A DNA stretch of 64,000 nucleotides from Rhodoglobus sp. (GTDB lineage Bacteria; Actinomycetota; Actinomycetes; Actinomycetales; Microbacteriaceae), in the NCBI GenBank assembly GCA_025464445.1, contig JAODLY010000026.1, forward strand, positions 1-64,000. The letters are read 5' to 3'. The notes below the pieces were generated by a model. That model had not been told where the DNA came from and did no database searches. It saw nothing but the letters and a program-made list of their open reading frames with translations. The stretch's first letter is position 1; each line of letters begins with the position of its first letter. The position numbers and the translations under genes were made by a program. This document shows positions 7,057-41,937 of this stretch, piece after piece.

Positions 7057-7135
7057 GTCCCCACTATTGGGGACTCCCGCCTATCCCCCGCGATTGCCTA
7101 AGGTCAGGTGAATCGTTGCACTAATTGGGGGCCGA

Positions 7136-7828
7136 ATGTCGATCGCGGAGCACCAGGACGTACCAGCAGCCTGGTACCCGGACCGGACCGATCCGAGCCA
7201 GCTGCGCTGGTGGGATGGCGGCGACTGGACCGACGACGTGCGGCCGATGATCGCGGCAGTGCCGCAGCCCGAGGCAGCTCGCGCAGAGCCCGACGTGCCC
7301 GTCATGCAGACCAGGCGTGGGCTGCACGCCGTGGCACAGCACGCGCAGGGCTTCGGGCACGCATCCGCTGAGCAGCTGCGCGCCTGGCCACCGCCTTCGA
7401 TCGGGGAGCGCAAAGACATCCACACGGCCGTGCACGAGGTTCCCCGCGAGTGGAGTGCGCCGGCCGAGGCCGCGCCGGTTGCCCCGGAGGCGACAGTCGC
7501 CGAGACGATCGTCCCCGAGACGGCGGTTGCCGAAAGCACAGTCGCCGAGACCATCGAGTCCGACCTCTCCTACTCAGACCTGCCGCAGCCCGGCGAGTAC
7601 TTCCTCGAGGAGCCCGACGAGTTCGTCGCCGCTCCGCTGCCCCGCTACGACTTCTTTGCCGACATCAAGCAGCAGGCGCCCGTCGTGGAGCAGGTGCGAT
7701 ACAGCGAGCCGCTGCCGCACGTCGTCAACCACTTTCCCGACCCTGCACCATTCGGCACCAGCCTCACGCGCCGCCAGCTGCGCGAGATGGTCGGGCCGCT
7801 CACCACTTCAACGCTTCGCGCCGAATAG
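7136..7828 (+). CDS. DUF2510 domain-containing protein
   Basis: PAAWYPDRTDPSQLRWWDGGDWTDDVRP matches the DUF2510 signature; then a VAET/VPET/VAES-rich linker. Confidence 0.82.
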   Translation: MSIAEHQDVPAAWYPDRTDPSQLRWWDGGDWTDDVRPMIAAVPQPEAARAEPDVPVMQTRRGLHAVAQHAQGFGHASAEQLRAWPPPSIGERKDIHTAVHEVPREWSAPAEAAPVAPEATVAETIVPETAVAESTVAETIESDLSYSDLPQPGEYFLEEPDEFVAAPLPRYDFFADIKQQAPVVEQVRYSEPLPHVVNHFPDPAPFGTSLTRRQLREMVGPLTTSTLRAE

Positions 7829-7850
7829 TCGCGAGGGATACATCTAGCAC

Positions 7851-16856: not shown

Positions 16857-18053
16857 TCAGTGCCTGCTCCCCCACAGGTCGGCCTGCACCTGCATCGCGA
16901 GCTGGCCGAGAAGCGAGCTCTCCGCCGGGGAGAACGCCCTCGGCTTGGAGTCCATGATGCACAGCGCCCCGACGCGCTGCCCGTTGCCCGCCTCGATGGG
17001 AAAGCCGGCGAAGAACCGCACCTGGTCGCGTCCGGTAACCCAGGAATACTTTCGAAAACGCGGGTCGACACTCGCATCGGTCACGACGAGGATCTTGCCG
17101 CTGTTGACCGTCGCGTCACCCAGCGCGTGGCCACGGGGGCTGTCGGTCGGGTCCAGGCCGACGCTTGCCTTGGTCCACTGGCGATCGCAGTCGATGAACG
17201 TGAGGGATGCCCCGGCTACGCCGAACAGGTCACGGGCAGACGCGACGATGCGGTCGAACCGCTCCTCACGCGCAGTATCGAGGATGCCAAGTTCACCCAG
17301 CGCGACCTGGCGGGCCGGCTCGTCGATCGCCGAAGGACCGCGCGGGTTCGACAACTGCGCGTCGAGCACGCGCGCGACTTTCGGAGCGAGCAGGCCGGCC
17401 CACATGCTGTACAAGAGGCTGCCGCTGTCATACAGGAAGTCGGCGGCTTCGGGATGGAAGGGAACGTACGTTGCTCCCGTGTGCTCGGCGCAGGCCCGCT
17501 TCAGCTGTTCGTCCAGCCGCGCGCTGCTTCGATCGACAAGGGCCCGGAAGATCCGCGGCAGTCTCGAAACACTGGGGATCGACGGGATGCCGACGAAAAC
17601 CACGCTCAGGCTCGACGGTGCGTGGTTATCGACCCAGGTGAGGAGAGCATCCAGGTCATGCCGGAACCGCCTCACCGGCACGAGATTGAGGGCTTCATCC
17701 GCGCCGAGAGTCATGACGAGGGCATCGAAGCTGGACAGGTCGAACGATTCGATCGCCGACGCGCATCCAGACACTCGCATTCCCAGTTCGGCGACGGTAT
17801 GCACGGATGCGCCCCGCCCGGTCAGCATGGTCAGCTGCCGCGCGAGGTGCCCCCCTAGCGCAAGACCCGCCGTGCGCACGCCGTAGCCGACCGCCAGCCC
17901 ACCGCCGACGAGAAGGATCTTGTCGGCGTTCGCGCCGGGGGAATGTGCGAGACGATCTGTCGGCCTGGGCAGCAGTCGCCAGGATTCGCTCGAGTTCTTC
18001 AGCCAAAGGCGCACCAAAGGCGAAACGATCGCGTGCAGTAGAAGCTCGGCCAT
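16857..18053 (-). CDS. SGNH-hydrolase-like (degenerate) domain + GAF domain protein, paralogue 1
   Basis: SWRLLPRP...GANADKILLVGGGLAVGYGV...GGHLARQL, VMTLGADEAL, then GAF FDRIVASARDLFGVAGASLTFIDCDRQWTKA...GFPIEAGNGQRVGALCIMD. Confidence 0.8.
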   Translation of the reverse strand: MAELLLHAIVSPLVRLWLKNSSESWRLLPRPTDRLAHSPGANADKILLVGGGLAVGYGVRTAGLALGGHLARQLTMLTGRGASVHTVAELGMRVSGCASAIESFDLSSFDALVMTLGADEALNLVPVRRFRHDLDALLTWVDNHAPSSLSVVFVGIPSIPSVSRLPRIFRALVDRSSARLDEQLKRACAEHTGATYVPFHPEAADFLYDSGSLLYSMWAGLLAPKVARVLDAQLSNPRGPSAIDEPARQVALGELGILDTAREERFDRIVASARDLFGVAGASLTFIDCDRQWTKASVGLDPTDSPRGHALGDATVNSGKILVVTDASVDPRFRKYSWVTGRDQVRFFAGFPIEAGNGQRVGALCIMDSKPRAFSPAESSLLGQLAMQVQADLWGSRH

Positions 18054-18122
18054 GACATGTCCCCCGACGTCGCCCCCGCCAGGGGCGCGTGGCGGCGAGT
18101 CTAGTCCGGCAACATGTGTTTT

Positions 18123-18665
18123 CTACGCGGCGTCGTACGCGCGCTCGAGCCAGCCGAGCAGTTCTGCATCGATTTGTGCGGCATCGACCAGGCGCACGCG
18201 GTGGGTGACCATGACGTTCCATGACCCGGCCGGCTCGAAGCGGTCGGTGGGGGCGGCATCCTTCAGCTTGATGCCGATATCCAGGCGGTCAGCAGTCATC
18301 GCGACGATCGCGAATTTGGCCTTGCCCTTGAGCAGGCTCACGTAGGTGTCGGTCGCGGCGGTGCCGACAGGGCCGTGCTTGCCGAGGGTCGCGAGCAGCG
18401 CGTCGAATGTGGCCCGCCAGTGCGCCTTCGTTCCCGTGAACTGCTTCTCGAGGCGCTCCTCGCGCGCCGGGCGGTCCTGGAAGATGTTGACGATGGCCAT
18501 GGCGTGGCCGCGCCCGAGACCGAAGTCCTCCTTGAGCCAGTCGACGATCTGGGTGACCTTGACGCCTTCGGCAAGGAGGCCGCGCTCTTCGGCGAGCCTG
18601 CGGAAATCGGCCGGATCGAGGCCGGTCTTCGCCTTGATGGTGTCGAGGTACGCCTGGAAGCTCAT
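18123..18665 (-). CDS. DUF4287/DUF5655-like protein
   Basis: MSFQAYLDTIKAKTGLDPADFRRLAEERGL...VKVTQIVDWLKEDFGLGRGHAMAI; C-terminal DUF5655-like. Confidence 0.85.
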   Translation of the reverse strand: MSFQAYLDTIKAKTGLDPADFRRLAEERGLLAEGVKVTQIVDWLKEDFGLGRGHAMAIVNIFQDRPAREERLEKQFTGTKAHWRATFDALLATLGKHGPVGTAATDTYVSLLKGKAKFAIVAMTADRLDIGIKLKDAAPTDRFEPAGSWNVMVTHRVRLVDAAQIDAELLGWLERAYDAA

Positions 18666-18696
18666 GGGGAGAGGATAGCGGCGTAGCCTCGAAGGA

Positions 18697-20445
18697 ATGA
18701 CATTCACGCCTGCCTCGACGTTCACCACCCGTCCGACACTTCGAGGCAGTTTCGGGATGACAGCTTCGACTCACTGGCTCGCGACCGCCTCCGCCCAGGC
18801 CGTGCTCGAGCGCGGCGGCAACGCCTTCGACGCCGCTGTCGCCGCGGCGTTCGTGCTGCACGTCGTCGAGCCGCACCTCAACGGCCCCGGCGGTGACATG
18901 GTCGGCATCTTCGCCGTAGCCGGCGGCGAACCGACAGTGCTCATGGGCCAGGGGCCAGCGCCGGCGGGCGCGACCATCGAGCACTACCGCTCCCTCGGGC
19001 TGTCACTCGTGCCGGGAGCTGGCGCACTGGCGGCGGCGATCCCCGGTGCGATGGACGCCTGGCTCCTGCTGCTGCGCGATCACGGTAGCTGGGAACTCGA
19101 GGATGTGCTGGCCTTCGCGATCGGGTACGCCCGGGACGGGCATCCCGTGCTCGACCGGGTCTGCTCGACAATTGCCACCGTCGCCGAGTTGTTCGAGCAG
19201 CACTGGCCCACGTCGGCAGAACTGTGGATGCCGCGGGGCCGCCCGCCCGCGCCGGGAGAGGTCATCACGAACCTCCCCCTCGCGCGCACGTATTCGCGCC
19301 TGCTGGCCACGGCTGTCGGTTCGACCCGCGAGGATCGCATCGACGGGGCGCGCACCTCGTGGTCGGCCGGGTTCGTGGCCCAGGCCATCGACGACTTCGT
19401 GCGCACCCCGCACCGCCACTCCGACGGCAACGACTACGCGGGAGTGCTTCGCGCGACCGACGCGTTCGAGGCGACGTATGAGGCGCCCGTCACGGGCGAG
19501 TTCCGCGGGCACACAATCGCCAAGTCTGGGGCGTGGGGCCAGGGGCCCGCGCTGTTGCAGATGCTCGCGATGCTCGACGGCTTCGAAGACCTCGACCCGT
19601 CGTCAGGGCTCGGGGCGCACACGATCCTCGAGGTGGAGAAGCTCGCCCTCGCCGACCGCGACGCCTACTTCGGCGACGGACCCGTGCCGCTCGACGTGCT
19701 GCTCTCCGCCGACTACATCGCCGCCCGGCGCGACCTCGTGACGGGCGCAGCATCGCACGAATTCCGCCCCGGGGTCGTGCCAGGGGTCGAGCCGTTCCTG
19801 CCGCCGCTCACGGTCGGGGCGACGGGACTCGGCGAGCCCACCGTCTCGCTGAGCGGCGAGACCAAAGGCGACACCTGCCACATCGATGTGATCGACAGGT
19901 GGGGCAACATCGTGTCGGCCACCCCCTCCGGTGGGTGGCTGCAGTCCTCGCCCGCGATCCCCGAGCTCGGGTTCGCGCTCGGGACGCGACTGCAGATGAC
20001 CTGGCTGGTGCCGGGAACCGCGGCGTCCCTCGCGCCCGGCAGGCGACCGCGAACGACGCTCACGCCCACGCTCGTGCTGCGCGACGGACGCCCGGTGACG
20101 GCGCTCGGCTCCCCCGGCGGCGACCAGCAAGACCAGTGGCAACTGCTCTACCTGCTGCGCACGATCGTCGGCGGCTACACCCCGCAGCAGGCAATCGACG
20201 CGCCCGCGCTGCACACCACATCCTTCCCCGACTCGTTCTGGCCACGCACCTGGGAGCCCGGCGGCGCCGTCATCGAGAACCGGCTGAACAACCTCGTCGC
20301 CGGCCTGCAACAGCGCGGGCACGTCGTCACGCGCGCCGGCGACTGGACGCTCGGGCGCCTCTCCGCCGTCGGCGTGGATGACACCGGGCTGCTGTTCGGC
20401 GCCGCAAACCCGCGCGGCGCACAAGGGTACGCCGCGGGGCGGTGA
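18697..20445 (+). CDS. Gamma-glutamyltransferase family protein
   Basis: ASAQAVLERGGNAFDAAVAAAFVLHVVEPHLNGPGGDM; GDTCHIDVIDRWGNIVSATPSGGWLQSSP; TLVLRDGRPVTALGSPGGDQQ. Confidence 0.93.
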   Translation: MTFTPASTFTTRPTLRGSFGMTASTHWLATASAQAVLERGGNAFDAAVAAAFVLHVVEPHLNGPGGDMVGIFAVAGGEPTVLMGQGPAPAGATIEHYRSLGLSLVPGAGALAAAIPGAMDAWLLLLRDHGSWELEDVLAFAIGYARDGHPVLDRVCSTIATVAELFEQHWPTSAELWMPRGRPPAPGEVITNLPLARTYSRLLATAVGSTREDRIDGARTSWSAGFVAQAIDDFVRTPHRHSDGNDYAGVLRATDAFEATYEAPVTGEFRGHTIAKSGAWGQGPALLQMLAMLDGFEDLDPSSGLGAHTILEVEKLALADRDAYFGDGPVPLDVLLSADYIAARRDLVTGAASHEFRPGVVPGVEPFLPPLTVGATGLGEPTVSLSGETKGDTCHIDVIDRWGNIVSATPSGGWLQSSPAIPELGFALGTRLQMTWLVPGTAASLAPGRRPRTTLTPTLVLRDGRPVTALGSPGGDQQDQWQLLYLLRTIVGGYTPQQAIDAPALHTTSFPDSFWPRTWEPGGAVIENRLNNLVAGLQQRGHVVTRAGDWTLGRLSAVGVDDTGLLFGAANPRGAQGYAAGR

Positions 20446-20446
20446 G

Positions 20447-21736
20447 TCAGAACCAGAGGCCCAGGTGTGGCGGCCGCGCGCTGCGGAACGCCGTGTCGAG
20501 AGCTGCCGCGGCACCCGGCAGCAGCTCGGTGATGCGTGCGGCGGCGACGAGTGTCGTGGCGGCGACCCCGCCCAGGTAGAGCGCGGACAACTCGTTGATC
20601 GACATGGCCAGGGATGCCGCGGCATCCGTCACCGCCACCGTGGCGACCCCGTCGGCGATCTCCACGGCGAACCGCCCGCCCGCGAAGCCGAGCTCGTCCG
20701 CGATCTCGAGCACGAAGGCGCCGGACCCCGTGTACGCCCGCGCCTCGAGCGCCGCCTTTACATCGAGAATGCGCAGCCACAGGTGATCCGCCTTCTGCGT
20801 GCGCACCGCGCGCATGTCGCTCACCTGCCACAGCACCGGCTCGTCGACCGAGCGCATCCCCGCCCTCACCTGGCTCACCAGGTCGACCTCGAGCAGGTAG
20901 CGCCACAGCGCCGCGTAGGCCTCAGGGGTTTCCGTGGACAGGTACTCGACGACGAGGGTGTGGGTGGAGAAGTCATCATCGCCGCCGGTCACCCGGTAGA
21001 TGGCGACCCCGGTCGTCGCGCCATCGGGAGCGTCGTAGCGCACAGCCCGCAGAGCCTTCGTGCGTTCGGCGTCATCGCTGGCCACGCCCGTGTACTCGTC
21101 CCAGCGCATCCCCCACATCTCGATCTGTCCGGGCACAGATCTGCGAACGCGATCGTGCATCGCGGCGACCTCGTCACGGAATTGCTCGATCGACACGAAA
21201 TGCACCCGGCCCGGCGCATCCGGACCCGCCCACTTCGCCCGGCGCGTGTCGAATGTGAGGGATGAGACGAACGCGCCCGGGGCGAAACCGAAACGCCCAT
21301 AGATGGTGCTCTCCGACACCGTGAGGATCGCGAGCGGCACCCCCTGCGCGTGGGCAGTCCGCAACTCCGCCTCGAGCAGCGCCCGTGCGATGCCCTTCCT
21401 GCGGTGGGTGGGCGCGACAGTCACCGAACTGATCGCCCAAGCCGGCACGATGCGCTCCCCCGGCACGCTCAGCTGCGCGACCCATGAGTTGACAGTCGCC
21501 ACCGGGGATGCCGCGTGCGGCGCGCCCTCGTCCCAAACCGCGGTCGTGCGGCGATACGCCAACGCGGCAAAGTACTGCGCGACCCGCTCGTCGGTCAGCT
21601 CGCCGCCGTGGAAACCGCGGTTGTCCGCACGCGTCCACGCCTCGAATGCAGCCGGGTCGCCCGTGTCGACGAGCCCGAGGCGCAGCCCCTTCGCCTCGAG
21701 GTCTGCAGCGGACGTGGGGTCGATCGGTTGGGGCAT
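20447..21736 (-). CDS. Eis-like GNAT acetyltransferase with sterol-carrier-like C-terminus
   Basis: VAPTHRRKGIARALLEAEL, LAILTVSESTIYGRFGFAPGA, long C-terminal domain. Confidence 0.88.
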   Translation of the reverse strand: MPQPIDPTSAADLEAKGLRLGLVDTGDPAAFEAWTRADNRGFHGGELTDERVAQYFAALAYRRTTAVWDEGAPHAASPVATVNSWVAQLSVPGERIVPAWAISSVTVAPTHRRKGIARALLEAELRTAHAQGVPLAILTVSESTIYGRFGFAPGAFVSSLTFDTRRAKWAGPDAPGRVHFVSIEQFRDEVAAMHDRVRRSVPGQIEMWGMRWDEYTGVASDDAERTKALRAVRYDAPDGATTGVAIYRVTGGDDDFSTHTLVVEYLSTETPEAYAALWRYLLEVDLVSQVRAGMRSVDEPVLWQVSDMRAVRTQKADHLWLRILDVKAALEARAYTGSGAFVLEIADELGFAGGRFAVEIADGVATVAVTDAAASLAMSINELSALYLGGVAATTLVAAARITELLPGAAAALDTAFRSARPPHLGLWF

Positions 21737-21931
21737 GGGTTAAGGGTAGCCGGGGGTTGGGGTGCGCTGCCCGGGGGCTGCTGCTGCGGCCCGGCCTGCA
21801 TGTTCGTGCCTCCCGTCCCCGCCGGCTTGCTCGTCCCTGCCTCCCGCCGCTGCCGCCCTGCTCGTCCCTGCCGCGTCCTCTCCCTCACAGGAGCTGCGGA
21901 AAGAACTTCCCCACAGATTCGCCCCAGCACT

Positions 21932-21947
21932 TCGAATATATGTTCGA
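21932..21947. promoter_or_regulatory. Putative LexA/SOS box
   Basis: TCGAATATATGTTCGA matches TCGAAC-N4-GTTCGA with one mismatch; 18 nt upstream of the HNH gene start. Confidence 0.6.
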
Positions 21948-21965
21948 ATCTGGCAAAATAGAACT

Positions 21966-23369
21966 ATGACAAATCCAACCGAGGCGGTGATCGCGGCCAC
22001 CGGAATTCTCTCGGCAGCAGCCGTGACTGCTGCCGAAGTTGCCGCGCTCGACGAGGCCGGCCTCCTACGGCTCCAGGCCGCCGTGAGCGCGCATCGCCGG
22101 GCGATCGACACCTTTGCGGGGCTCGCCGCCGGGGAGATCGCCCACCGCTCCCGACGCGATCTCGGTTACGCCGGGCTGGCCCAGTCCAATGGGTTCCGTT
22201 CCGCCGAAGACTTCATCCAATCCGTGTCGGGCACCACGAAGGCCGAGGCGGGCAAGCTCGTGCATGTCGGCTCGATGATGCTTGCGGCGGCCGCCCCGAC
22301 CGACGACGATCCGCCCGCGTGGAGCGCTCCCCTCGCCGCCGCCCTCTCCCGAGGCGGGGCCTCGCTCGACGCGATCGAGTCGATCCTGCGTGGGCTCGGC
22401 GAACCGGATGCCGCTGTCACTCCCCCGCAACTGCAGGCCGCAGCTGAGCGACTGCTCGCCGACCTCGACAACCTCGACGCCGACCAGCTCTACCGCCGTG
22501 CCCGCGCACTGCGCAACGAACTCGATGAGCAGGGCATCGCCCGCCGCGAAAAGCAGCGCAGGGACATGCGCTACCTCAGGGTCGCGCGGCGCCCCGACGG
22601 TCTCGTCGCCGGTTCATTCCTCCTCGACCAGGAAGACGGCGCCCTGTTCCTCTCCGCGATCGACACCGCGCTCAGTCCCCGTCGTGGTGGTCCGCGATTC
22701 GTGGATGCCGCGGCCAAAGCCAGGGCGGCGGCGCTCCTCGCCGACCCCCGCACGAACGACCAGCTCGCGGTCGACACCCTCATGACAATGGTCCGCCTGG
22801 CCATCGACGCCGACAGCGGCACGATCTTCGGCAGCCGTCGGCCCGCCGTTCGCGTGATCGTCACGGAAGACAGCATCAGGCAGCGTGGCAGCGGCGCACT
22901 GGAGGGAATGCCCGATCCCGTGGCTTTCGGCACAGTCGAGCGGTACCTCTGCGACACCGGAACCCTTGGAATCCTGTTCGATGACGAAGGCAAGGGCATC
23001 AACGTCGGCCGCGAGCGGCGACTCTTCACCGACCACCAGCGAACCGGACAATCCGTGAGAGACGGTGGATGCATCTATCTCAACTGTCTGCGCCCACCCG
23101 GCGAATGCGAAGCCCATCACATCAACCAATGGCATCGAGATACCGGCCGCACAGACCTTGCCGACGGCGTGCTGTTATGTCGTTTCCATCACATGTTGCT
23201 GCACAACAACGGCTGGGAGATTCGCCGAACCGGCGCGCAATACTGGCTCGTGCCGCCGCGGGCCGTCGACCCGCAGCAACAGCCGATCCTCCTCGTGAGC
23301 AAAACCCCCGCGGTGAAACAACTCGTCGACCGCGGGCTCGATCGCACTCAAGAACTCGTGGACGCGTAG
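21966..23369 (+). CDS. DUF222 / 13E12-type HNH endonuclease signature protein
   Basis: N-terminal DUF222-like region; C-terminal HNH CEAHHINQWHRDTGRTDLADGVLLCRFHHMLLHNNGW. Confidence 0.92.
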   Translation: MTNPTEAVIAATGILSAAAVTAAEVAALDEAGLLRLQAAVSAHRRAIDTFAGLAAGEIAHRSRRDLGYAGLAQSNGFRSAEDFIQSVSGTTKAEAGKLVHVGSMMLAAAAPTDDDPPAWSAPLAAALSRGGASLDAIESILRGLGEPDAAVTPPQLQAAAERLLADLDNLDADQLYRRARALRNELDEQGIARREKQRRDMRYLRVARRPDGLVAGSFLLDQEDGALFLSAIDTALSPRRGGPRFVDAAAKARAAALLADPRTNDQLAVDTLMTMVRLAIDADSGTIFGSRRPAVRVIVTEDSIRQRGSGALEGMPDPVAFGTVERYLCDTGTLGILFDDEGKGINVGRERRLFTDHQRTGQSVRDGGCIYLNCLRPPGECEAHHINQWHRDTGRTDLADGVLLCRFHHMLLHNNGWEIRRTGAQYWLVPPRAVDPQQQPILLVSKTPAVKQLVDRGLDRTQELVDA

Positions 23370-23406
23370 CCGCATGAGGCCCCAAGCGCAAGAACGCACC
23401 CAGAAG

Positions 23407-24066
23407 CTAACCCGCCACCACCGGCCCCACCGGACCGACCGACAGGATGTTCGCCGAACCGTTCGCGCAACCGGTGTACCCACTGGCCACGATCGTGACG
23501 GGCGTGCTGATGTTCGGCGGCAAGACCTTCACGCCGACAGCATCCTGGGGATCGCAGCTATCGACGTTGCCGGCATCCGTCACCTTGAGAAGTGCCGAAA
23601 CCGCATTGCCCGGATCGATCGTATTGTCACTGATCGGCTGGGTCGTATCGGGCGAAGCCGCCGCACCGATATCCGACCCCGAAGAATCGATGAGAGAGAC
23701 GACCGGATACCCGCTGAGCGTGCACGCCGCGCTACCCGAATTGGTGAAGATGACCGGCACGAAAGTGCTGCCGGCAGTGCCATCCGGGGTGCCGAGCGTC
23801 ACCGTGAGATCCCCAGCCCCACAGGCAGTCGGGCTGGGTGGTGCCGTCGGAGTCGAGGTCGGGGTCACAGAGGCCGACGGCGTCGGAGTCGGTGTCGACG
23901 CGGGTGCTGCGCCATTGCGCGCGAACAGCAACACGATGAGGGCGATGATCGCGAGACCCAGAACCGTCGCCAGCACGACCAGAGCGATTCTCGCTCCACT
24001 TCGGGGCGGCTTCTCGCCATGCCGCGCAGGCTCGGGCAGGGGCTGCGTGCGGTTGTCGAAAGTCAT
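23407..24066 (-). CDS. DUF4232-like secreted/membrane-anchored protein
   Basis: TM anchor, PTPTPSASVTPTSTPTAPPSP linker, FTNSGSAACTLSGYPVVSLIDSSG. Confidence 0.75.
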   Translation of the reverse strand: MTFDNRTQPLPEPARHGEKPPRSGARIALVVLATVLGLAIIALIVLLFARNGAAPASTPTPTPSASVTPTSTPTAPPSPTACGAGDLTVTLGTPDGTAGSTFVPVIFTNSGSAACTLSGYPVVSLIDSSGSDIGAAASPDTTQPISDNTIDPGNAVSALLKVTDAGNVDSCDPQDAVGVKVLPPNISTPVTIVASGYTGCANGSANILSVGPVGPVVAG

Positions 24067-24107
24067 GTTCAACGGTGGCACTGCGGCCCGGGCATCCACA
24101 ACCCCCG

Positions 24108-25328
24108 CTATTGGCGCCGAAGTGCGTTCTCCCAGAGCAGCGCCTGCGCGCTCAGCGCGAGGTCACGCAACAACATCGCGTCGGAACCGGCGAACACCCG
24201 CGGCTTCGTGTCGACGATGCAGAGGGCGCCGATGCGCTGGCCGTCGGGTGCCTCGACCGGGTACCCAGCGTAGAAACGCACGGCATCCGGCCCGGTCGTC
24301 CACGATCTTGACCGAAAGCGATCATCCTCGAGCGTGTCTTCGACGACGAACAGACCGGGCGTGCCGATTGTCGTGTCGCACAGCGACTCGTCCCGCGGCA
24401 CGCCGGCATGGGGCACCCCGGACGCCGCGCACGCCCACTGCCTATCGCCCTCGATGATGTTGAGCGATGCCCCATGCGCGCCGAACAGGTCGCGCGCACT
24501 CGCCACGATCTTCGCGACCCTCTCGTCGGGGCTCTCGTGAAGGTTCATTGCCGTGACCGCGCGCATGCGGGCAGCCTCATCGACCTCTTCATCGAGATGG
24601 GCGGCATGGGCATCAAGGGCGAGCGCGACATCCGGCGCGACCATCGCCGACCACTCGTTGTAGACATCACCACGGGCGAGCGAACTGAAGTCGCCGGCAC
24701 GCGGTACGAACGGCACAAACCTCACCTGCGGGTCGACAGCGGCGAGAGCGATCGTCTCCTCATTCAGCGCCCTACCCGCCCGGATCACGAAAGGAGCGAA
24801 TCGGGCGGGCATGGGGATTATGGAGGGCATCGCCGCCACCGCAATGACGATCACTGTGAGACTCGCCGGCGCCGCGCCCCCGATGAAAGCCACCAGGGAA
24901 CGCAACTGGCCACGCCATCTGCCCCTCGGCATGAGCTGCAGCGCTTCCAGCCCCCCGAAAGTGAACATGACAGCGTCGTAACGTGCCAGGTTCACACTCG
25001 CGAGGGCTGCCCGAGCCGCAAGCGGGCCCATATCGGGACCGGCGATGACATCGACGTCCGTGCCGCGCCCGGTGATCTGCGACACCCGACGAGCGAGGTG
25101 CCCGGCAACGCCAAGGTCATGCGAGAGCACGCCGTATCCCACGGTGCCACCAGACCCGACAAGCAGGATGCGGTCGGCATCCCGTCCTGGCGCGTGCACC
25201 GACGCAGTCGAGGCGGGTCGAGGCAGCTGCCTCCACGAGTTCGGCGACGTAGCATGCCAGACGCGCAGGATGGTGCTCGCGACGAAATGACCGACATATC
25301 CCATGAGCTGGCCTCCGGTGGATGCCAT
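24108..25328 (-). CDS. SGNH-like (degenerate) + GAF domain protein, paralogue 2
   Basis: SWRQLPRP...GRDADRILLVGSGGTVGYGV; GAF ...GASLNIIEGDRQWACA...AGYPVEAPDGQRIGALCIVD. Start may be the internal MGYVGHF (25304). Confidence 0.8.
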   Translation of the reverse strand: MASTGGQLMGYVGHFVASTILRVWHATSPNSWRQLPRPASTASVHAPGRDADRILLVGSGGTVGYGVLSHDLGVAGHLARRVSQITGRGTDVDVIAGPDMGPLAARAALASVNLARYDAVMFTFGGLEALQLMPRGRWRGQLRSLVAFIGGAAPASLTVIVIAVAAMPSIIPMPARFAPFVIRAGRALNEETIALAAVDPQVRFVPFVPRAGDFSSLARGDVYNEWSAMVAPDVALALDAHAAHLDEEVDEAARMRAVTAMNLHESPDERVAKIVASARDLFGAHGASLNIIEGDRQWACAASGVPHAGVPRDESLCDTTIGTPGLFVVEDTLEDDRFRSRSWTTGPDAVRFYAGYPVEAPDGQRIGALCIVDTKPRVFAGSDAMLLRDLALSAQALLWENALRRQ

Positions 25329-25480
25329 CGGGTATGACGGCTCGGGATGACTGTATGGGCCGCGAGCCGCCCAGCCCGCGATAGACCCGCCAGCGTCTTG
25401 CGCAGCCTACGCAGCGGGGTAAGACGCGACCCGCAGCTAAATCGCTTCGGCGCCCACCGAGCCGAGCGGCGGCCGGTGGG

Positions 25481-25540
25481 GGTGCGGGGGGCCCGGTCAG
25501 GGTGCCGGGGGGCCGGTCAGGGTGCCGGGGGCCCGGTCAG
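25481..25540. repeat. 3 x 20-bp G-rich tandem repeat
   Basis: GGTGCGGGGGGCCCGGTCAG / GGTGCCGGGGGGCCGGTCAG / GGTGCCGGGGGCCCGGTCAG. Confidence 0.9.
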
Positions 25541-26334
25541 GCAGCCGGCTGGAACCACGGCGGGTAGACCGCGACCTTCGGCGCGGGCACTACACCAGAC
25601 ACAAGCTCTCGCACCTTGTCGCGTACACGGTCATTGGCGACACCGATGAGCTGCACAGACTCGAACGGGAACGAGTGCATCACCAGGGCCTCGGCGCTGC
25701 GCCGGGCATCCTCATCGTCGTGGAGCTTCTCGATTGTGCGCTGGATGCCGTCACCCGTCGAGAAGCGCGTGAACGTCGCGGCGGCGTCACCGTCCGCGAT
25801 CACCGCGCCATCACCCAGCGCCCCGACAGTGCTGACGAGGAACACGAAATCGGCGGGGGTGGCTTTGCGCGCGGCATCCGACCAACGGGTCTCGTCGACC
25901 GCACCCGCACGCAGGTCCTCCCAGAGTGCCGCGTCCGGTGCGAGGTAGAAGGGCACGTACTCGGCGACACTCGCGTGGCGGCCCGCGCCATCCAACCCGG
26001 CGCTGGCCGATGGTGAGACCTCTGCGGACATCCGCAGCTCCTTAGTCAGTTCAGAGCTCACGTCGACAACAGGCGCAGCATCGGCCGAAAGCGCGCCGGC
26101 CGAGACGATGCCCTGGAGGTTGCGGATGTGCGTCACGTGGTAAATGCGCTGGTCCCCCGCGTTTATCGACTTGCGCGAGGTTCTTACCGGGACGGAACGA
26201 GCAGTGCGTGGGGCCGCCGCCGCGCGGGCTGCACGCGGTTTCTCCGGTGCGGCCTTCGGGTAGCAGATATCGCAGAGCGGAACCTCGAGACCGTGAATGC
26301 ACTCCGTCACTTGCGCCGTATCCTCCCGTGGCAT
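25537..26334 (-). CDS. DarT-like (DUF4433) ADP-ribosyltransferase domain protein with N-terminal Cys/His motif
   Basis: IYHVTHIRNLQGIVSAGALSAD, AEYVPFYLAPDAAL, SAEALVMHSFPFESVQLIGVAND; N-terminal ECIHGLEVPLCDICYPK. Upstream M at 26382 possible. Confidence 0.78.
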   Translation of the reverse strand: MPREDTAQVTECIHGLEVPLCDICYPKAAPEKPRAARAAAAPRTARSVPVRTSRKSINAGDQRIYHVTHIRNLQGIVSAGALSADAAPVVDVSSELTKELRMSAEVSPSASAGLDGAGRHASVAEYVPFYLAPDAALWEDLRAGAVDETRWSDAARKATPADFVFLVSTVGALGDGAVIADGDAAATFTRFSTGDGIQRTIEKLHDDEDARRSAEALVMHSFPFESVQLIGVANDRVRDKVRELVSGVVPAPKVAVYPPWFQPAA

Positions 26335-26469
26335 CCCGGATCGGGGACCATGACTAACGCTACGTCGACTTCCGATGTGCAAAGACCATGGCCGCCACCG
26401 GAGCGTCAGCCTAAGGTGTGTTGACGGCGTTCGCCCTCTCGCTTCTCGGCTCGCTCATCGGCGCCGCGG

Positions 26470-26526
26470 GCGTGATTTTCAAGCCGCTGCGTGATTTTCA
26501 AGCCACTGTGTGATTTTCAAGCCACT
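26470..26526. repeat. 3 x 19-bp tandem repeat
   Basis: GCGTGATTTTCAAGCCGCT / GCGTGATTTTCAAGCCACT / GTGTGATTTTCAAGCCACT; intergenic. Confidence 0.92.
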
Positions 26527-26538
26527 GTCAGACGAAGG

Positions 26539-27273
26539 CTAACCCTGGGAACGCGGCCCCGCCGTGACGGGCGAGTGGGGCTCGAGCGCGACAGTCACCG
26601 GGGGCGCGATGATCTCCGCCCACTGCCGATATGTGCGGCCGGTTCCCGTGCGCCCGGCGAGGTCTTTCGGCTCGAACGGCACGAATGTCGTGCTGCTGCG
26701 CGACTTGCACAGCAACTCGATCTCCGCGTTTATGCGTCGTGACGAGATCTTCGAGAGCAGGCCCAGGATTCGCGGCATCCGCACTATCGAAGCAAGCGGC
26801 GGAACGCCCACGATGAACACGTGCAGGCTTGCCGGGGCATGGTCGAGTACGTAGTCGAGCACGGCTTCGATCTGTCGGCGCCATGCCCTGGGTGAGCGCA
26901 TGAGGAGTGTTTCGGGGCCTCCCGGGGTCGCGACGATGGTGTCGACAGAGGTGAGCCACTTGCGATTGAGTGCCTTACGCACGTCGTTGCCGGTCATCTC
27001 CTCGGTGACGAGAACGTCGACCCGCGCCCCCCTGCCGGTGATCTCTGACACGCGCAGGGCCAGCTGGCCGGCAAGTGCAAGGTCGTGCGACACCGCGCCG
27101 TATCCCACGGCGATACCGGAACCGACGAGCAGCAACCTGTCGGGGTTCATTCCCGGAACACTTGCCGTAGGTTTTCCGCTCGGTCGGGGAAGGTCGTGCC
27201 AGGACTCGGTGGATGACGCGAGCCACGAGCGCAGCAAAGGAAGCACGAGTACGTGCCTCAGAAGCTCCTGCAT
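26539..27273 (-). CDS. SGNH-like (degenerate) protein, paralogue 3, no GAF domain
   Basis: SWHDLPRP...GMNPDRLLLVGSGIAVGYGAVSHDLALAGQLALRVSEITGRGARVDV; ORF ends after the SGNH-like domain. Confidence 0.75.
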   Translation of the reverse strand: MQELLRHVLVLPLLRSWLASSTESWHDLPRPSGKPTASVPGMNPDRLLLVGSGIAVGYGAVSHDLALAGQLALRVSEITGRGARVDVLVTEEMTGNDVRKALNRKWLTSVDTIVATPGGPETLLMRSPRAWRRQIEAVLDYVLDHAPASLHVFIVGVPPLASIVRMPRILGLLSKISSRRINAEIELLCKSRSSTTFVPFEPKDLAGRTGTGRTYRQWAEIIAPPVTVALEPHSPVTAGPRSQG

Positions 27274-27402
27274 TCTTCCCCCCACCCGATTTTGTGACCA
27301 GTATATCCGTGCGATCATGAGTTAGGCTCACGCCCGTCAACCCAGTTCAGGGGTGTTGCGGACCCCTTTCCCCCGCTGGAGGGACGTTGCTACGGTAAAT
27401 GT

Positions 27403-28017
27403 ATGACTGATTCCGGGACGTTCACAGATCCACTCGCGCCGCTGGCCAGGGGCATCTGGTGGTGGGTGCTCCTCCGTGGCATCCTCGCCGTCGTATTCGG
27501 CGTTATCGCACTCATCGCGCCCGGCACTGCCTTGACCGCCGTCGCCATAGTCTTCGGCGCGTATGCGCTCGTCGACGGCATCATGGCGGCCAGCCAGGCG
27601 GTGCGCGTGCGCAACTCGTTCAAGCCGTGGGGCTGGCTGCTCGTGCAGGGCATCCTCTCGGCCCTCGCGGGTCTGGCCGCGCTCGTGCTTCCCGCCCTTG
27701 TGGGCGCTCTCGGCGGCCTCGTCGTGCTCTGGACGATAGCGATCTGGAACCTCATGCACGGTTTCGCCGGAATCCGGTCGGCCGCTGGCGCCTCCGATGG
27801 TCGGGCAAAGACCTGGGGAATAGTCGCCGGTGTCCTGACCCTGGTCTTCGGGATCGTGCTCGGCGTGCTGATTCTCCTCACCCCGGGCGCGACGCTGCTT
27901 GGTCTCATCTGGGCGGTCGGCATCTACGCCGTCGTCTTCGGAGTGACCCTCGTTGTCACCGCAATCCAGGTGCGGATCGCCGCGCACTCCAACGGCGCGA
28001 CTGTCAAGACCGCGTAG
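27403..28017 (+). CDS. HdeD/DUF308 family membrane protein
   Basis: WWVLLRGILAVVFGVIALIAPGTALTAVAIVFGAYALVDGI. Confidence 0.9.
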   Translation: MTDSGTFTDPLAPLARGIWWWVLLRGILAVVFGVIALIAPGTALTAVAIVFGAYALVDGIMAASQAVRVRNSFKPWGWLLVQGILSALAGLAALVLPALVGALGGLVVLWTIAIWNLMHGFAGIRSAAGASDGRAKTWGIVAGVLTLVFGIVLGVLILLTPGATLLGLIWAVGIYAVVFGVTLVVTAIQVRIAAHSNGATVKTA

Positions 28018-28021
28018 CTGC

Positions 28022-28432
28022 CTAGCGGCCCCGGCCGCCTGATGACTCACGCGTGGCCCGCTGCTCGGCTTTGGCCGCGCGCTCGGTCTTGATTCTCGAA
28101 TTCTCGTCCTGCACGACCGCATGCGTCGCGCGCTCGACGACGAGCCATTCGGGCTTCTGTTCCAGCAGTGACTTGATCTCGCTTGTCGTCATGACGTCTG
28201 CTGCGCCGGCGCGGGCGAGCCCAGACGTGGAGATGCCCAGCTTCTGCGCGACCACCTGGCGCGGGTGCGGCCCGTCTTTGCGCAGCGCGACAAGCCACTC
28301 CGGCGGATTCGACTGCAGTTCGAGAAACTCAGCGCGCGTCACCTCCGCGGCCTGGAAAGCCTCAGGCGTTGCCGGCAGGTAGATACCCAGCTTCCTGGCT
28401 GCTGTCGCTGGCTTCATTGTCTGGTCTGGCAT
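28022..28432 (-). CDS. DUF5997-type protein
   Basis: KPATAARKLGIYLPATPEAFQAAEVTRAEFLELQSNPPEWLVALRKDGPHPRQVVAQKLGIS. Confidence 0.82.
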   Translation of the reverse strand: MPDQTMKPATAARKLGIYLPATPEAFQAAEVTRAEFLELQSNPPEWLVALRKDGPHPRQVVAQKLGISTSGLARAGAADVMTTSEIKSLLEQKPEWLVVERATHAVVQDENSRIKTERAAKAEQRATRESSGGRGR

Positions 28433-28441
28433 TATCCAAGG

Positions 28442-29659
28442 CTAACGGGTGCCCGCACCCGCGGCCCACAGCCTCGATTGCACCCGCAGCGCCAGTTCGC
28501 GCAGCAGTGAAGCATCACTCGCCGTGAACGTGCGCGGCTGGGTGTCTACTATGCACAGCGCTCCCACCCGTTCCCCGTTCGGCGCTTCGAGCGGATACCC
28601 GGCATAGAACCGTATGTGTTCGTCGCCGGTCACCCATGGGTGGGATGCGAAGCGCTTATCGGCCAGCGCATCCTCGACAACGAACAACTTGTCACGCCCA
28701 ATCGTGACCGAGCAGAACGAATCCTGGCGCGGGGTGACATTTCTGCGGATACCCGCCGCCGACTTGATCCATTGCCGATCCCTGTCGATGAACGTGACCG
28801 CGGCGCCGGAGGCGCCGAACAGGTCGCGCGCCACGCGGGTGATCGAGTCGAATTGCTCATCCCGCGGCGTATCGAGGATGTGCAACTCGTCGAGCGCATG
28901 CTGGCGATCAGACTCGTCGACGCGAGCGTGCACCCGAGGACCCTCGCTCGCCGCATTGAGCACGGGCAGCATCGCGGGAACTATCCGGCCTGCCCAGGTC
29001 TCATAGAGATTCGTTCCCCTCGTGGGCCCGAGACCCGCGAGATCGGCGGCGTTGGCCTCGAACTGCACGAAACTCACCCCGGCCCTGCCGGCAACCGACG
29101 CGCTGGTTTGGGCATTGAGGCGCACAACTTTGCGCCCGATGACACGTCGGAGCGGTTTCGGGAGGTTCACGATAAGCGGAAGAGGCGGAATACCGACAAT
29201 CAGGGTCGTCAGGGTCGACGGGGCGGCCCCGGCGATGGCGTCGAACAGCGCCTCGAGATCCTGCCGCCATTCGCTCCTTTGCGCGAGCATCATGGCTTCG
29301 CGCATTCCGAGGAGCATGACCACAGCATCGAACCTGCCGAGATCTGTTGCCTCGACGAGACGCGTGCACTGCTGCACCGTGAGATTGAGGTTGCCGACCA
29401 CCTCTATGTCGGCGCCACGCCCGGTGCTGGCGGACAGATGCCGTGCGAGATGTCCGCCAAACGCGATCTCGTGGGATGTGACACCAAGACCCTGTACAGC
29501 TGCGCCCCCGATGAGCAGCACGCGGTCGGCGTTCGGGCCCATGGCGTAAATGTGCGGCAGGTCGTGCGGTCGTGGGAGGGCGGCCCACCTCCGCCATACC
29601 GGCATCAGGAGCAGCTCCATTACGGGAGCCGAAATCCTGTGCGCCAACTGCCTGCGCAA
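28442..29659 (-). CDS. SGNH-like (degenerate) + GAF domain protein, paralogue 4
   Basis: WAALPRP...GPNADRVLLIGGAAVQGLGVTSHEIAFGGHLARHL; GAF ...GAAVTFIDRDRQWIKS...AGYPLEAPNGERVGALCIVD. Start may be MELLLMPVW (29620). Confidence 0.8.
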   Translation of the reverse strand: MRRQLAHRISAPVMELLLMPVWRRWAALPRPHDLPHIYAMGPNADRVLLIGGAAVQGLGVTSHEIAFGGHLARHLSASTGRGADIEVVGNLNLTVQQCTRLVEATDLGRFDAVVMLLGMREAMMLAQRSEWRQDLEALFDAIAGAAPSTLTTLIVGIPPLPLIVNLPKPLRRVIGRKVVRLNAQTSASVAGRAGVSFVQFEANAADLAGLGPTRGTNLYETWAGRIVPAMLPVLNAASEGPRVHARVDESDRQHALDELHILDTPRDEQFDSITRVARDLFGASGAAVTFIDRDRQWIKSAAGIRRNVTPRQDSFCSVTIGRDKLFVVEDALADKRFASHPWVTGDEHIRFYAGYPLEAPNGERVGALCIVDTQPRTFTASDASLLRELALRVQSRLWAAGAGTR

Positions 29660-29770: not shown

Positions 29771-30433
29771 GTGCCTGAACCCTTCGTCGTCGCCTTCGTC
29801 GTCGGGGTGACGCCGGGCAAATGGGCCCGCGCCTGGGAGGCGAGGATGCCCGCATCCCCGCTCACCCTGCGTGCCCTGTCCCAGGGGGCCGCCCTGGCCG
29901 CCCTCGCCGATGGAACCGTGGATGCCGCCCTCCTGCGGCTGCCCATCGAGGACGAGTCCATCTCCACGATCGCGCTCTACGCCGAGCAGCCCGTCGTCGT
30001 CGCCGCGAAGGGGCACGCTCTCGAAGCTGTGGACAACGTGACCCTCGCTGAGCTCGCCGGGTTCGGCATCCTCGAGGATTCCGACTGGGAAGCAGCCGTC
30101 GAACTCGCCGCAGCGAATGTTGGCGTCGCCGTCATGCCGCAGTCGGTGGCCCGGGCGCACAGCAGGCGGGATGTCACGGCTCGCCCGGTAACGGACGCGC
30201 CAGAGACCCGCATCGCCCTCGCCTGGCCGACTGCCCGTACCACCGGCACCGTTGACGAGTTCATCGGGATCGTGCGTGGTCGCACAGCCAACAGTTCGCG
30301 CGGCGTGCGGCCGCCGGAGCCGGAGAAGAAGCCGGAGCCGGCCAAGAAAGCCGCGCCGAAGGGCGGACCGAAGAAGCCCGGCCCCAGGAAGCCCGGCCCC
30401 AGAAAGCCACCCAAGCGGCCTAAACGGCGCTGA
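29771..30433 (+). CDS. LysR-type substrate-binding domain protein without HTH, Lys/Pro-rich tail
   Basis: TLRALSQGAALAALADGTVDAALLRLPIEDESISTIALYAEQPVVVAAKGHAL; C-terminal KKPGPRKPGPRKPPKRPKRR. Confidence 0.78.
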   Translation: MPEPFVVAFVVGVTPGKWARAWEARMPASPLTLRALSQGAALAALADGTVDAALLRLPIEDESISTIALYAEQPVVVAAKGHALEAVDNVTLAELAGFGILEDSDWEAAVELAAANVGVAVMPQSVARAHSRRDVTARPVTDAPETRIALAWPTARTTGTVDEFIGIVRGRTANSSRGVRPPEPEKKPEPAKKAAPKGGPKKPGPRKPGPRKPPKRPKRR

Positions 30434-31075: not shown

Positions 31076-31105
31076 CCGGTCGGATGTCGCCAGCAATTGA
31101 CACAA

Positions 31106-31121
31106 TCGAACGTATGTTCGA
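31106..31121. promoter_or_regulatory. LexA/SOS box
   Basis: TCGAACGTATGTTCGA, exact TCGAAC-N4-GTTCGA palindrome 10 nt upstream of the imuA' start. Confidence 0.85.
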
Positions 31122-31131
31122 ATATGGACAC

Positions 31132-31860
31132 ATGTCCACTGCGGCTGTCCTGACCCCAGAGCCGGTCATCGACGAGCCCGCCGCCCGGTCCACCCAGTCC
31201 GTGCAGCAGCTGCAGGCGCGCATCCGTTCGATGCAGGCGACGAAACTCGATTCTCGGCTCATCCCCACCCATCCGGCGATCGCCGGGCTGCTGCCGGGCG
31301 GCGGCCTCAAGCAGGGTGCCGTGTATTCGGTGGAACGCTCGGCGATGCTGCTCATGACGCTGCTTGCGGGGCCGTCAGCAGCCGGGTCGTGGTGCGCGGT
31401 CGTGGGGGTGCCGGAGTTCGGGGTGGAGGCCGCCCAGCGTTTCGGGATCGACCTCGAGCGGCTCGTGCTCGTGCCGCATCCCGGGGATGACTGGCTCACG
31501 GTCACGGCAGCCGTCGCCGATGTCATGGGCGTCGTCGTCACGCGTCCGCCAAAACGCGCGACCGATTCGAGCATCGCCCGGCTCTCTGCCCGGCTGCGCC
31601 AGCGCGGCGCCACCCTGCTCGTGCTCGGCAGCTGGCCGCAGAGCGAGGCGATGCTCTCCCTCTCGCAGAGCCAGTGGCACGGCATCGGCGAAGGCCACGG
31701 GCACCTGGCCGCCCGCGAAGTCACCGTCACTGTGACCAATCGCGTGACCGGCAGGCCGCGCAGCGCACGGCTCTGGCTGCCAGACGCCGACGAGCAGGTG
31801 CGGCGCTCTGCGTCCGCTTCTGCTGGCTTCTCCACGATGCCGCGGGAGGCGACGGGATGA
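31132..31860 (+). CDS. ImuA'-like (RecA-related) mutasome protein
   Basis: LPGGGLKQGAVYSVERSAMLLMTLLAGPSAAGSWCAVVGVPEFGVEAAQRFGIDLERLVLVPHPG; directly upstream of imuB/dnaE2; SOS box. Confidence 0.82.
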   Translation: MSTAAVLTPEPVIDEPAARSTQSVQQLQARIRSMQATKLDSRLIPTHPAIAGLLPGGGLKQGAVYSVERSAMLLMTLLAGPSAAGSWCAVVGVPEFGVEAAQRFGIDLERLVLVPHPGDDWLTVTAAVADVMGVVVTRPPKRATDSSIARLSARLRQRGATLLVLGSWPQSEAMLSLSQSQWHGIGEGHGHLAAREVTVTVTNRVTGRPRSARLWLPDADEQVRRSASASAGFSTMPREATG

Positions 31861-33488
31861 GCCCGCACACCCGCCGCGCCGCGCCCATCCGTATCCCCGC
31901 GGATGCCGCCCTCTCGCCCAGGCATCCCGGCGGTGGCGAGCTGCCCGGCGCGACGATCCCGCGGGTGATGGTCCTGTGGTGTCCAGACTGGCCGATCACC
32001 GCTGCGATACATGAGGCACGACCGGCGTCGGATGCCGTGGCGCTCATCGACAAAGGGCTCGTTTACGCGTCATCCGCCGCCGCTCGCGCAGACGGGGTCA
32101 CCCGCGGCCTGCGCCTGCGGGAGGCACAGGCCCGCTGTCCAGCCCTCGTCGTGCTCGATTACGACCCAGCCGTGGACAACCGGGTGTTCGAGCCGATAAT
32201 CGCCGGCCTCGAACAGCTCACGCCGCACGTGCAGGTGCTGCGCCCCGGAATGTGCGCGCTGCGGGTGCGCGGTGTCGCCCAGTACTACGGCGGCGAGAAG
32301 GGGGCGGCCCTCGCCCTTGCCGGGCGCATGGACGAACTGGGCGCAGGGCAGACCCGCGCAGGTGTCGCTGACGGCATCTTCACGGCGGAGCAGGCCGCCC
32401 GCGGGAGCAGGGGTGGTCACGGGCGGGTGCGGGTCGTCGCGCCCGGCGAGTCCGCCGCGTTCCTCGCACCACTCGATGTCGGGTTGCTCGACGACGCCGC
32501 ACTTGTGACGCTGCTGCGCCGGCTCGGAGTGCGCACCCTCGGGAACTTCGCAGCGCTGCCCGCCGACGACGTGCGCACCCGGTTCGGCGAGCCCGGCCGC
32601 AGGCTGCACGCACTCGCCAGTGGCAGGGACTCCTGGCCGCTCGTGCCCCGCACTCCCCCTGACGACTTCGATGTCGTCATCGACTTCGAGCCGGCGCTCG
32701 ACAGGGTCGACCAGGTGGCATTCGGCGTGCGTACTGCGGCCGAGCGGTTCATCGATGCGCTCACCGCCGCGAAACTTGCCTGCACGGCGATCAGGGTGGA
32801 ACTGCTCTCCGACGCCGCGGATGTCTCAGAGCGGGTGTGGCTGCATCCGCGATCATTCACGCCCGCCGACGTTGTGGACAGGGTGCGCTGGCAGCTGCAG
32901 GGCAGCGGGGTCATCGACGCAGGGCTGAGTGCTGGCATCATCCGCGTCAACATCACCCCTGAGGCCGTTGACGCGATCGGCAACCACGAGTCGGGGCTGT
33001 GGGGCACAGGGCCAGACGAACGCATCCACCACGGGCTCTCTCGCGTGCAGAGCATGCTCGGCCACGGTGCGGTGCTCATGCCGTCGATCGGCGGTGGCCG
33101 CACCCTCGGCGACCGGCAGCAACTCGTGGCGTGGGGTGACCGTCCAGTCGGCGTTCGACAGGTGGCCCAGCCGTGGCCCGGCCGGCTGCCCGTGCCGCTG
33201 CCGGGCACAGTGTTCGAGCCGCGGCATCCCGTGCATGTCTTCGGTGCCGGCGGTGTGGCAGTCGTTGTGGATGAGCGTGGGGCGCTCTCCGCTGCCCCAG
33301 CCGAGCTTTCCGCGGGGGCCACAGTGCTGGGCATCGGCTCGTGGGCGGGGCCGTGGCCGGTCGACGAGCGCTGGTGGTCGCAGGATGCCCGGCGGTGTTG
33401 GCGCTTCCAGGCGGTCGACTCGACGGGCTGTGCCTGGCTGCTCGTGCTCGACGAGGGCGGCTGGTGGGCGGAAGCCCGGTACGACTGA
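31857..33488 (+). CDS. imuB: ImuB-type Y-family polymerase-like protein
   Basis: VMVLWCPDWPITAAIHEARP...AAARADGVTRGLRLREAQARCP; ATGA overlap with imuA' and 1-nt overlap with dnaE2. Confidence 0.88.
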   Translation: MSPHTRRAAPIRIPADAALSPRHPGGGELPGATIPRVMVLWCPDWPITAAIHEARPASDAVALIDKGLVYASSAAARADGVTRGLRLREAQARCPALVVLDYDPAVDNRVFEPIIAGLEQLTPHVQVLRPGMCALRVRGVAQYYGGEKGAALALAGRMDELGAGQTRAGVADGIFTAEQAARGSRGGHGRVRVVAPGESAAFLAPLDVGLLDDAALVTLLRRLGVRTLGNFAALPADDVRTRFGEPGRRLHALASGRDSWPLVPRTPPDDFDVVIDFEPALDRVDQVAFGVRTAAERFIDALTAAKLACTAIRVELLSDAADVSERVWLHPRSFTPADVVDRVRWQLQGSGVIDAGLSAGIIRVNITPEAVDAIGNHESGLWGTGPDERIHHGLSRVQSMLGHGAVLMPSIGGGRTLGDRQQLVAWGDRPVGVRQVAQPWPGRLPVPLPGTVFEPRHPVHVFGAGGVAVVVDERGALSAAPAELSAGATVLGIGSWAGPWPVDERWWSQDARRCWRFQAVDSTGCAWLLVLDEGGWWAEARYD

Positions 33489-36400: not shown

Positions 36401-36913
36401 CGCGAGGCGATGTGGAACGCCGGCAATGCCGCACAAGACAGGGAGGAGTTCCTGCCCGGCAGTGTGGCGGCAGTGCAGCCGCCGCTCTTCGCGATGCCTT
36501 CGCCGGTCGAGGAGCTGATGAGCGACCTGTGGGCGACGGGGGTCTCACCGGACAGCCATCCGGTGCAGCACCTGCGGCCGCTGTTGGCCGGGCGCGGGGT
36601 GATCACTGCAGCGGGCCTCGCCACCGCGGAGAACGGTCGCAGGGTGGAGGTGGGCGGCGTCGTGACACATCGCCAGCGCCCCGCGACGGCAAGCGGCATC
36701 ACCTTCATCAACCTCGAGGATGAGACCGGCCTGGTCAATGTGATCTGCAGCGTCGGCGTGTGGAACCGCTACCGTCGCGTCGCGCGCGAGGCCCCCGCGA
36801 TGATCATCCGCGGCATCCTTGAGCGGTCAGCGGAGGGCGTGACCAATATTCTCGCCGACCGTTTCGAGCTTCTTTCGATGACGCCGCGCATGAAATCCCG
36901 CGATTTTCGGTGA
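33488..36913 (+). CDS. dnaE2: Error-prone DNA polymerase III alpha subunit
   Basis: [25 protein letters not shown] (PHP), [80 protein letters not shown]. Confidence 0.95.
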
Positions 36914-41175: not shown

Positions 41176-41937
41176 ATGACGCAGCAGCACCCGTGGAGCC
41201 GATACGTAGCGATCGGGGACTCGTTCACGGAAGGCATCGGGGATCCTGAGCCCCTGAGCCCTGGCGGGCACCGCGGCTGGGCGGACAGGGTCGCAGAGGT
41301 GCTCAGTGACGGCACCGAGGATTTTGCTTACGCGAACCTCGCAATTCGCGGGCGACTGCTGCAACAGATCATCGACGAGCAGGTGGATGCCGCACTGGCC
41401 CTCAAACCGGACCTCATCACCGTATCGGCGGGCGGCAACGACATCCTTCGTCCTGGCACCGACCCCGACGACATCTCCCGGCGGTTCGAGACGATGATCG
41501 AGAGACTGCGCAGCGAGGGTGCGACGGTGCTCATGTTCAACGGACCCGATGTCGGGATGACGCCCGTGCTCGGCAGGGTGCGAGGCAAGGTGGCCATCTA
41601 CAACGAGAACCTGCGGGCGATAGCGCAGCGGCATGACGCGATAGTCGCGGACATGTGGGCCATGCACGAACTGGCCGACCCGCGGATGTGGGCTCCAGAC
41701 CGCCTGCACTTCTCCCCCACCGGCCACCATACGATCGCCCGCATGGTGTTGGATGCCCTCGCCGTCGAGAACGATCTCGAACCCTTCGCCCCAGAGCCGC
41801 TTCGACCGGTACGGTGGCGGCAGGCGCGCGCCGAAGATATCGGCTGGGCCCGGGAGTACCTCGTTCCCTGGGTGCTGCGCCGGGTGCGGCACCAGTCATC
41901 CGGCGACGATGTGACGCCGAAGCGACCGGGCTTCTAG
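41176..41937 (+). CDS. SGNH/GDSL hydrolase (canonical active site)
   Basis: YVAIGDSFTEGIGDP (block I), SAGGNDIL (GxND), APDRLHFSPTGHH (DxxH). Confidence 0.93.
   Translation: MTQQHPWSRYVAIGDSFTEGIGDPEPLSPGGHRGWADRVAEVLSDGTEDFAYANLAIRGRLLQQIIDEQVDAALALKPDLITVSAGGNDILRPGTDPDDISRRFETMIERLRSEGATVLMFNGPDVGMTPVLGRVRGKVAIYNENLRAIAQRHDAIVADMWAMHELADPRMWAPDRLHFSPTGHHTIARMVLDALAVENDLEPFAPEPLRPVRWRQARAEDIGWAREYLVPWVLRRVRHQSSGDDVTPKRPGF

Follow-up and report, generated by a model that had tools for sequence, protein, structure and literature searches.

Four related open reading frames (ORFs) lie close together on the minus strand of a Rhodoglobus sp. contig, and their products resemble SGNH hydrolases in which the catalytic residues have been replaced. 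This raises the question of whether they are broken enzymes, enzymes of altered chemistry, or proteins that have been put to another use. For the window, i.e., the whole 64,000-nucleotide stretch of DNA that was analysed, the original prediction had proposed a family of eroded SGNH domains, mostly fused to a GAF domain, with a ligand-binding or sensory role. All four ORFs, P0001 to P0004, were present at the expected positions (Table 1). For P0003, a longer frame is possible from an ATG at position 27318; homology favours the start at 27273. The four proteins show approximately 37 to 43% pairwise identity (31 to 43% by pair and overlap) and can be aligned as a single family. The N-terminal signature attributed to all of them was present, if only approximately: SWRLLPRP, SWRQLPRP, SWHDLPRP, and RWAALPRP, followed by GANADK, GRDADR, GMNPDR, and GPNADR, respectively. 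A further minus-strand ORF (27337 to 28122) was rejected as a gene, as it is antisense to a DUF308 gene. The moments of the N-terminal helices, computed with membrane binding in mind, were moderate, and a search with PADLOC for a role in defence returned zero matches for P0001 to P0004.

Table 1. Positions and properties of the features discussed in the text
Feature	Position	Strand	Remarks
P0001, SGNH-like pseudo-hydrolase + GAF, 398 aa	16857..18053	-	GGG at former GDS, GADE at GxND, DxxH block lost
GAF domain of P0001 (residues 262-389)	16887..17270	-	Pfam PF01590, 3e-16; nearest solved structure 4zmu, Dcsbis
P0002, SGNH-like + GAF, 406 aa	24108..25328	-	GSG / GGLE / without DxxH
GAF domain of P0002 (residues 267-393)	24150..24530	-	PF01590, 2.4e-9
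DarT-like gene	25537..26382	-	PF14487, 2.4e-19; adjoins SGNH paralogues in most genus island loci read
P0003, SGNH-like without GAF, 244 aa	26539..27273	-	GSG / GGPE / without DxxH; no Pfam match, SGNH fold predicted; clade of GAF-less orthologues, support 98
DUF5997 gene	28022..28432	-	1.5e-48; syntenic neighbour
P0004, SGNH-like + GAF, 405 aa, TTG start	28442..29659	-	GGA / GMRE / without DxxH; clade support 96
GAF domain of P0004 (residues 266-393)	28481..28864	-	PF01590, 3.2e-14
LysR substrate-binding domain protein without HTH	29771..30433	+	Syntenic neighbour
Canonical SGNH hydrolase, control outside the pseudo-hydrolase family	41176..41937	+	Catalytic motifs, Pfam

The C-terminal GAF domain proposed for three of the four proteins was recovered well above the curated PF01590 cutoff of 22.4 bits, with scores of 60.5, 38.3, and 54.0 bits for P0001, P0002, and P0004, and none was found in P0003. 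The SGNH assignment required further support, since the GDSL_2 model was below threshold in two of the proteins (28 to 29 bits versus 32.9) and absent in the other two. Relatives within the same alignment reached an E value of 2e-13 for Lipase_GDSL_2. The original prediction had called for structures to verify the SGNH-like layout, and AlphaFold2 models of P0001 and P0003 (pLDDT of 89.7 and 88.7) bear it out. SGNH esterases were among the Foldseek matches of the P0001 model in the PDB. With P0003, SGNH enzymes made up nearly all of the top matches despite the lack of a Pfam match, and its model displayed the three-layer SGNH fold, with a TM-score of 0.72 by target length and an E value of 4e-8 against 8ik1. 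The SGNH matches of the two models included EstL5 (8ik1), the GDSL esterase 7e16, and TesA. We conclude that P0001 to P0004 have the SGNH fold, which is predicted with good confidence.

Judged from the alignment, all four proteins lack the block I Ser, the block III Asn of GxND, and the block V DxxH, with its His, that are expected of an active SGNH enzyme. The residues found in blocks I and III agree with those originally read, including the replacement of the nucleophile, as do the C-terminal segments that take the place of DxxH, and the gene at 41176 is indeed a canonical SGNH enzyme suited as an internal control. A canonical homologue of the same subtype is encoded elsewhere in this genome (L007), with GDS, GAND, and DLFHPSESGYRDWA. 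Alignment with L007 shows that P0001 to P0004 retain the block I and block III glycines as well as the Y..WA segment located after DxxH. Because the homology of these proteins with the active cousins extends to the C-terminal block, the position of the catalytic His can be placed. Alignment, tree, and fold all support the loss of the catalytic set, and no conserved triad was found at another place, which would have contradicted it.

To describe the relatives, motifs were tabulated for 151 distinct homologous domains, and those with neither GDS nor GES (126/151) were classed as non-canonical. Ninety-six of these 126 are fused to GAF. The former Ser position was occupied by Gly or Ala in 123 of the non-canonical domains, and among the GAF-fused proteins a Ser stood there in 1 of 96 (L032), which lacks the remaining catalytic residues. 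The acidic residue of GxND was retained as Asp or Glu in 124/126. The 25 more distant homologues (24 GDS and 1 GES) were nearly all canonical, having GxND and DxxH as well (DxxH in 23), and none carried GAF. One of these 25, L076, which has GDS and lacks both GxND and DxxH, forms a long branch within the pseudo-hydrolase clade. Among 63 representatives chosen below 55% identity, the former Ser column contained 57 Gly, 5 Ala, and 1 Ser, ranking 14th of 232 in conservation. Other residues are specific to the family and unconserved in its canonical cousins, including the His of V-x-SH (86%), the Thr just before G-R-G (97%), an Arg in the first helix (90%), and a Trp after block III.

The block III Asn was retained in 50 of the 126 non-canonical relatives. 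Many relatives from Cryobacterium and other genera combine it with DRxR at the site of the canonical DxxHP, and most copies within the genus of the window lack both. The two features are associated (Fisher P = 7e-5 among representatives, with kinship ignored), which suggests that the change was stepwise. Less-derived relatives that keep GxND and have DRxR instead of DxxH may possess residual chemistry of another kind. It could be supposed that the whole family consists of active enzymes of altered chemistry, for instance, with a Ser or Cys relocated to the second residue of block I (GSG or GCG) or by means of DRxR. This would suit the GSG of P0002 and P0003 and a Cryobacterium group with GCG and DRHR, where a His may occupy the catalytic position. 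However, the second position, formerly the Asp of GDS, now varies freely (S, G, N, A, D, E, C, or Y; rank 125 of 232) and differs even among close relatives (GCG, GGG, and GSG within the DRHR group), P0001 to P0004 have no DRxR, and P0001 has Thr-Ala instead of the Ser-His pair conserved in the family. We therefore regard altered chemistry as rather improbable.

The family is under constraint. The SGNH and GAF domains had median dN/dS values of 0.16 and 0.17, respectively, calculated from 149 non-independent pairs that exclude P0001 to P0004 as too diverged, and almost all ORFs were intact. The term "eroded" is thus not quite apt, since the former Ser column is among the most conserved, with the replacement residue itself conserved, and dN/dS is low. 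On the sequence evidence, the domain is a constrained, re-specified pseudo-hydrolase and not a decaying one, and its catalytic residues are gone while purifying selection continues, as in a pseudoenzyme. That the genes are pseudogenes in progress, left by an expansion of an esterase family, is very improbable. The family is divergent, multi-copy, and partly GAF-less, and in one Cryobacterium MAG (L158, 2349 to 3664) the SGNH and GAF parts lie in separate frames through a frameshift or sequencing error; when GAF remnants were sought downstream of solo members, this was the only one found. Decay is nevertheless at odds with the low dN/dS, the nearly complete set of intact ORFs, the occupation of 41 genera, and the fixation of the nucleophile position as Gly.

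The family was present in 27/27 genomes of the window's genus. Of the Microbacteriaceae sampled, 87/200 genomes and 41/85 genera contained SGNH-like homologues; for the non-canonical type, these counts are upper limits, as the E value cutoff admits some canonical cousins. Outside Microbacteriaceae, alignable matches in a 397-genome sample of the phylum read as canonical GDS or GES, with 7 candidates scored per genome, so that rare cases may be missed. Named matches, for which the degenerate scan was built on a four-row alignment, were from Salinibacterium, Rhodoglobus, a Leifsonia MAG, Cryobacterium, Glaciihabitans, Marisediminicola, Amnibacterium, and Schumannella, all of them Microbacteriaceae. 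Further matches derived from MAGs named to phylum only and from one MAG contig labelled Acidobacteria (L154), whose SGNH-GAF gene may reflect misbinning or transfer. With the motif columns excluded, the tree separated the non-canonical proteins from canonical enzymes with a support of 99. P0001, P0003, and P0004 each fell into a subclade with orthologues from other genomes (support of 99, 98, and 96), and the placement of P0002 was unsupported. Since orthologues in other genomes share these subclades, the tree indicates that the four paralogues predate the species. A tree had been proposed as a check for lineage-specific expansion; the paralogues belong to older subfamilies, and the family spans Microbacteriaceae and is no local curiosity. 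Large parts of the tree have weak support; it requires at least 12 changes in GAF presence.

As selection maintains this design in roughly half of the sampled Microbacteriaceae genera, the proteins are probably an undescribed kind of non-enzymatic sensor rather than broken enzymes. We consider it fairly likely that they are non-catalytic pseudo-hydrolases of the SGNH fold, kept by selection as ligand-binding regulatory proteins. The sensory role first suggested for them fits the purifying selection and the GAF fusion, and we infer it from these features. The old active-site cleft, formed by the GxGxxxGxG loop and the retained acidic residue, would bind a small ligand, probably acyl- or ester-like, without cleaving it. 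The GAF domain could dimerise the protein and sense a second ligand, by analogy to the proposal for Dcsbis, and output might occur through protein-protein contact, plausibly with GAF-bearing kinases. GAF would nevertheless be dispensable for some functions, since many members are solo proteins that lack it.

Alternatively, the SGNH-like part may be a mere structural or dimerisation scaffold, with all sensing and output performed by GAF. By Pfam score, GAF is the better conserved module, and the nearest GAF structure dimerises on its own (PMC4937426). However, both domains are under purifying selection of equal strength, the SGNH domain has conserved cleft residues of its own, and GAF-less members make up at least one supported lineage. 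A pure scaffold is therefore unlikely, and we retain the ligand-binding regulatory protein as the preferred reading.

The four genes belong to an island that is syntenic within the genus and comprises imuA/imuB, the LysR effector domain gene, DUF5997, the SGNH paralogues, and genes for the DarT-like protein, an Eis-like acetyltransferase, DUF4287/DUF5655, and a gamma-glutamyltranspeptidase. In six relatives of the genus (L039, L040, L041, L043, L045, and L053), the island also encodes, next to the SGNH genes, a Ser/Thr kinase that has a C-terminal GAF of its own; in three of these relatives (L039, L041, and L043), the kinase gene lies immediately upstream on the same strand. The VAVK, HRD, and DFG motifs were intact in the kinases checked. 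In the genome of the window, the kinase-GAF gene is located on a separate contig (L006). GAF domains of the kinases and SGNH proteins are approximately 33 to 46% identical, and a special kinship between them was rejected, as either group is closer to other GAFs. Since the two are not nearest kin, the linkage is a lead and not proof; found almost wholly within the window's genus, it may be inherited synteny. It appears unlikely at present that the pseudo-SGNH-GAF proteins and the kinases make up a lineage-wide signalling system, with the former as ligand-binding partners of the latter through GAF-GAF contacts and with the old nucleophile elbow turned into a GxG ligand loop.

Other neighbours were observed as well. 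The DarT-like protein contains an N-terminal CxxH..CxxC segment, no DarG was recognised beside its gene, and the gene is kept across genus loci beside the SGNH paralogues and the Eis-like acetyltransferase; perhaps it is not a toxin. The DUF5997 and LysR-domain gene pair recurs in the window's genus and in Cryobacterium. The pair may constitute a split LysR regulator, given the HTH-like stretch of DUF5997 (KLGISTSGLARAG in L108). Mutasome genes on the plus strand (31084 to 36913), encoding ImuA-like (no Pfam match), ImuB-like, and DnaE2-like proteins, adjoin the island, and in other genera, too, imuA-like genes occur in the vicinity of SGNH-GAF genes (L124 and L152). An AraC-family regulator gene, mostly divergent, adjoins an SGNH(-GAF) subfamily at 11 loci of other Microbacteriaceae genera (L138, L139, L140, L143 to L145, L147, L149, L153, L156, and L157), and in L050 a heliorhodopsin gene (6996 to 7838, plus strand; 2e-94) directly adjoins an SGNH-GAF gene.

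To our knowledge, bacterial pseudoenzymes have been little studied. If our reading is true, this undescribed family offers an internal contrast of active cousins in the same genome, GxND-keeping intermediates, and fully re-specified copies, by which a change from hydrolase to sensor becomes testable. Automatic annotation of its genes as "GDSL hydrolase" would mislead. A system of such architecture is not known to have been described, as the original prediction noted, and in the open-access literature, to which the search for SGNH with GAF or pseudoenzyme was confined, we likewise found no description of it.

With SGNH/GDSL hydrolases (PF13472; EstL5 8ik1, 7e16, and TesA), the window proteins have in common the fold, the block I and block III glycines, and the Y..WA segment. 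Unlike these enzymes, they lack the Ser, the oxyanion Asn, and DxxH, have conserved residues of their own, and, in three of four cases, are fused to GAF. CE2 carbohydrate esterases, whose structures 2wao and 2wab were among the Foldseek matches, provide a precedent for an SGNH-fold active site that serves binding; they retain catalysis, unlike the proposed pseudo-hydrolases (PMC2661963). The GAF of P0001 is 41% identical, over 150 positions of structural alignment, to that of the GAF-GGDEF diguanylate cyclase Dcsbis/PA2771 (4zmu), but it follows a pseudo-hydrolase as the C-terminal domain, whereas Dcsbis combines its GAF with GGDEF. Dcsbis dimerises through its GAF, which has a large hydrophobic pocket and a degenerate NKFDE motif and does not bind cAMP or cGMP (PMC4937426). 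The NKFDE motif of cyclic nucleotide-binding GAFs was not seen in the window GAFs, as read by eye. The Ser/Thr kinase-GAF proteins of the same bacteria (L039 and L006) share the C-terminal GAF class and have a catalytically intact kinase where the SGNH-GAF proteins have the SGNH domain.
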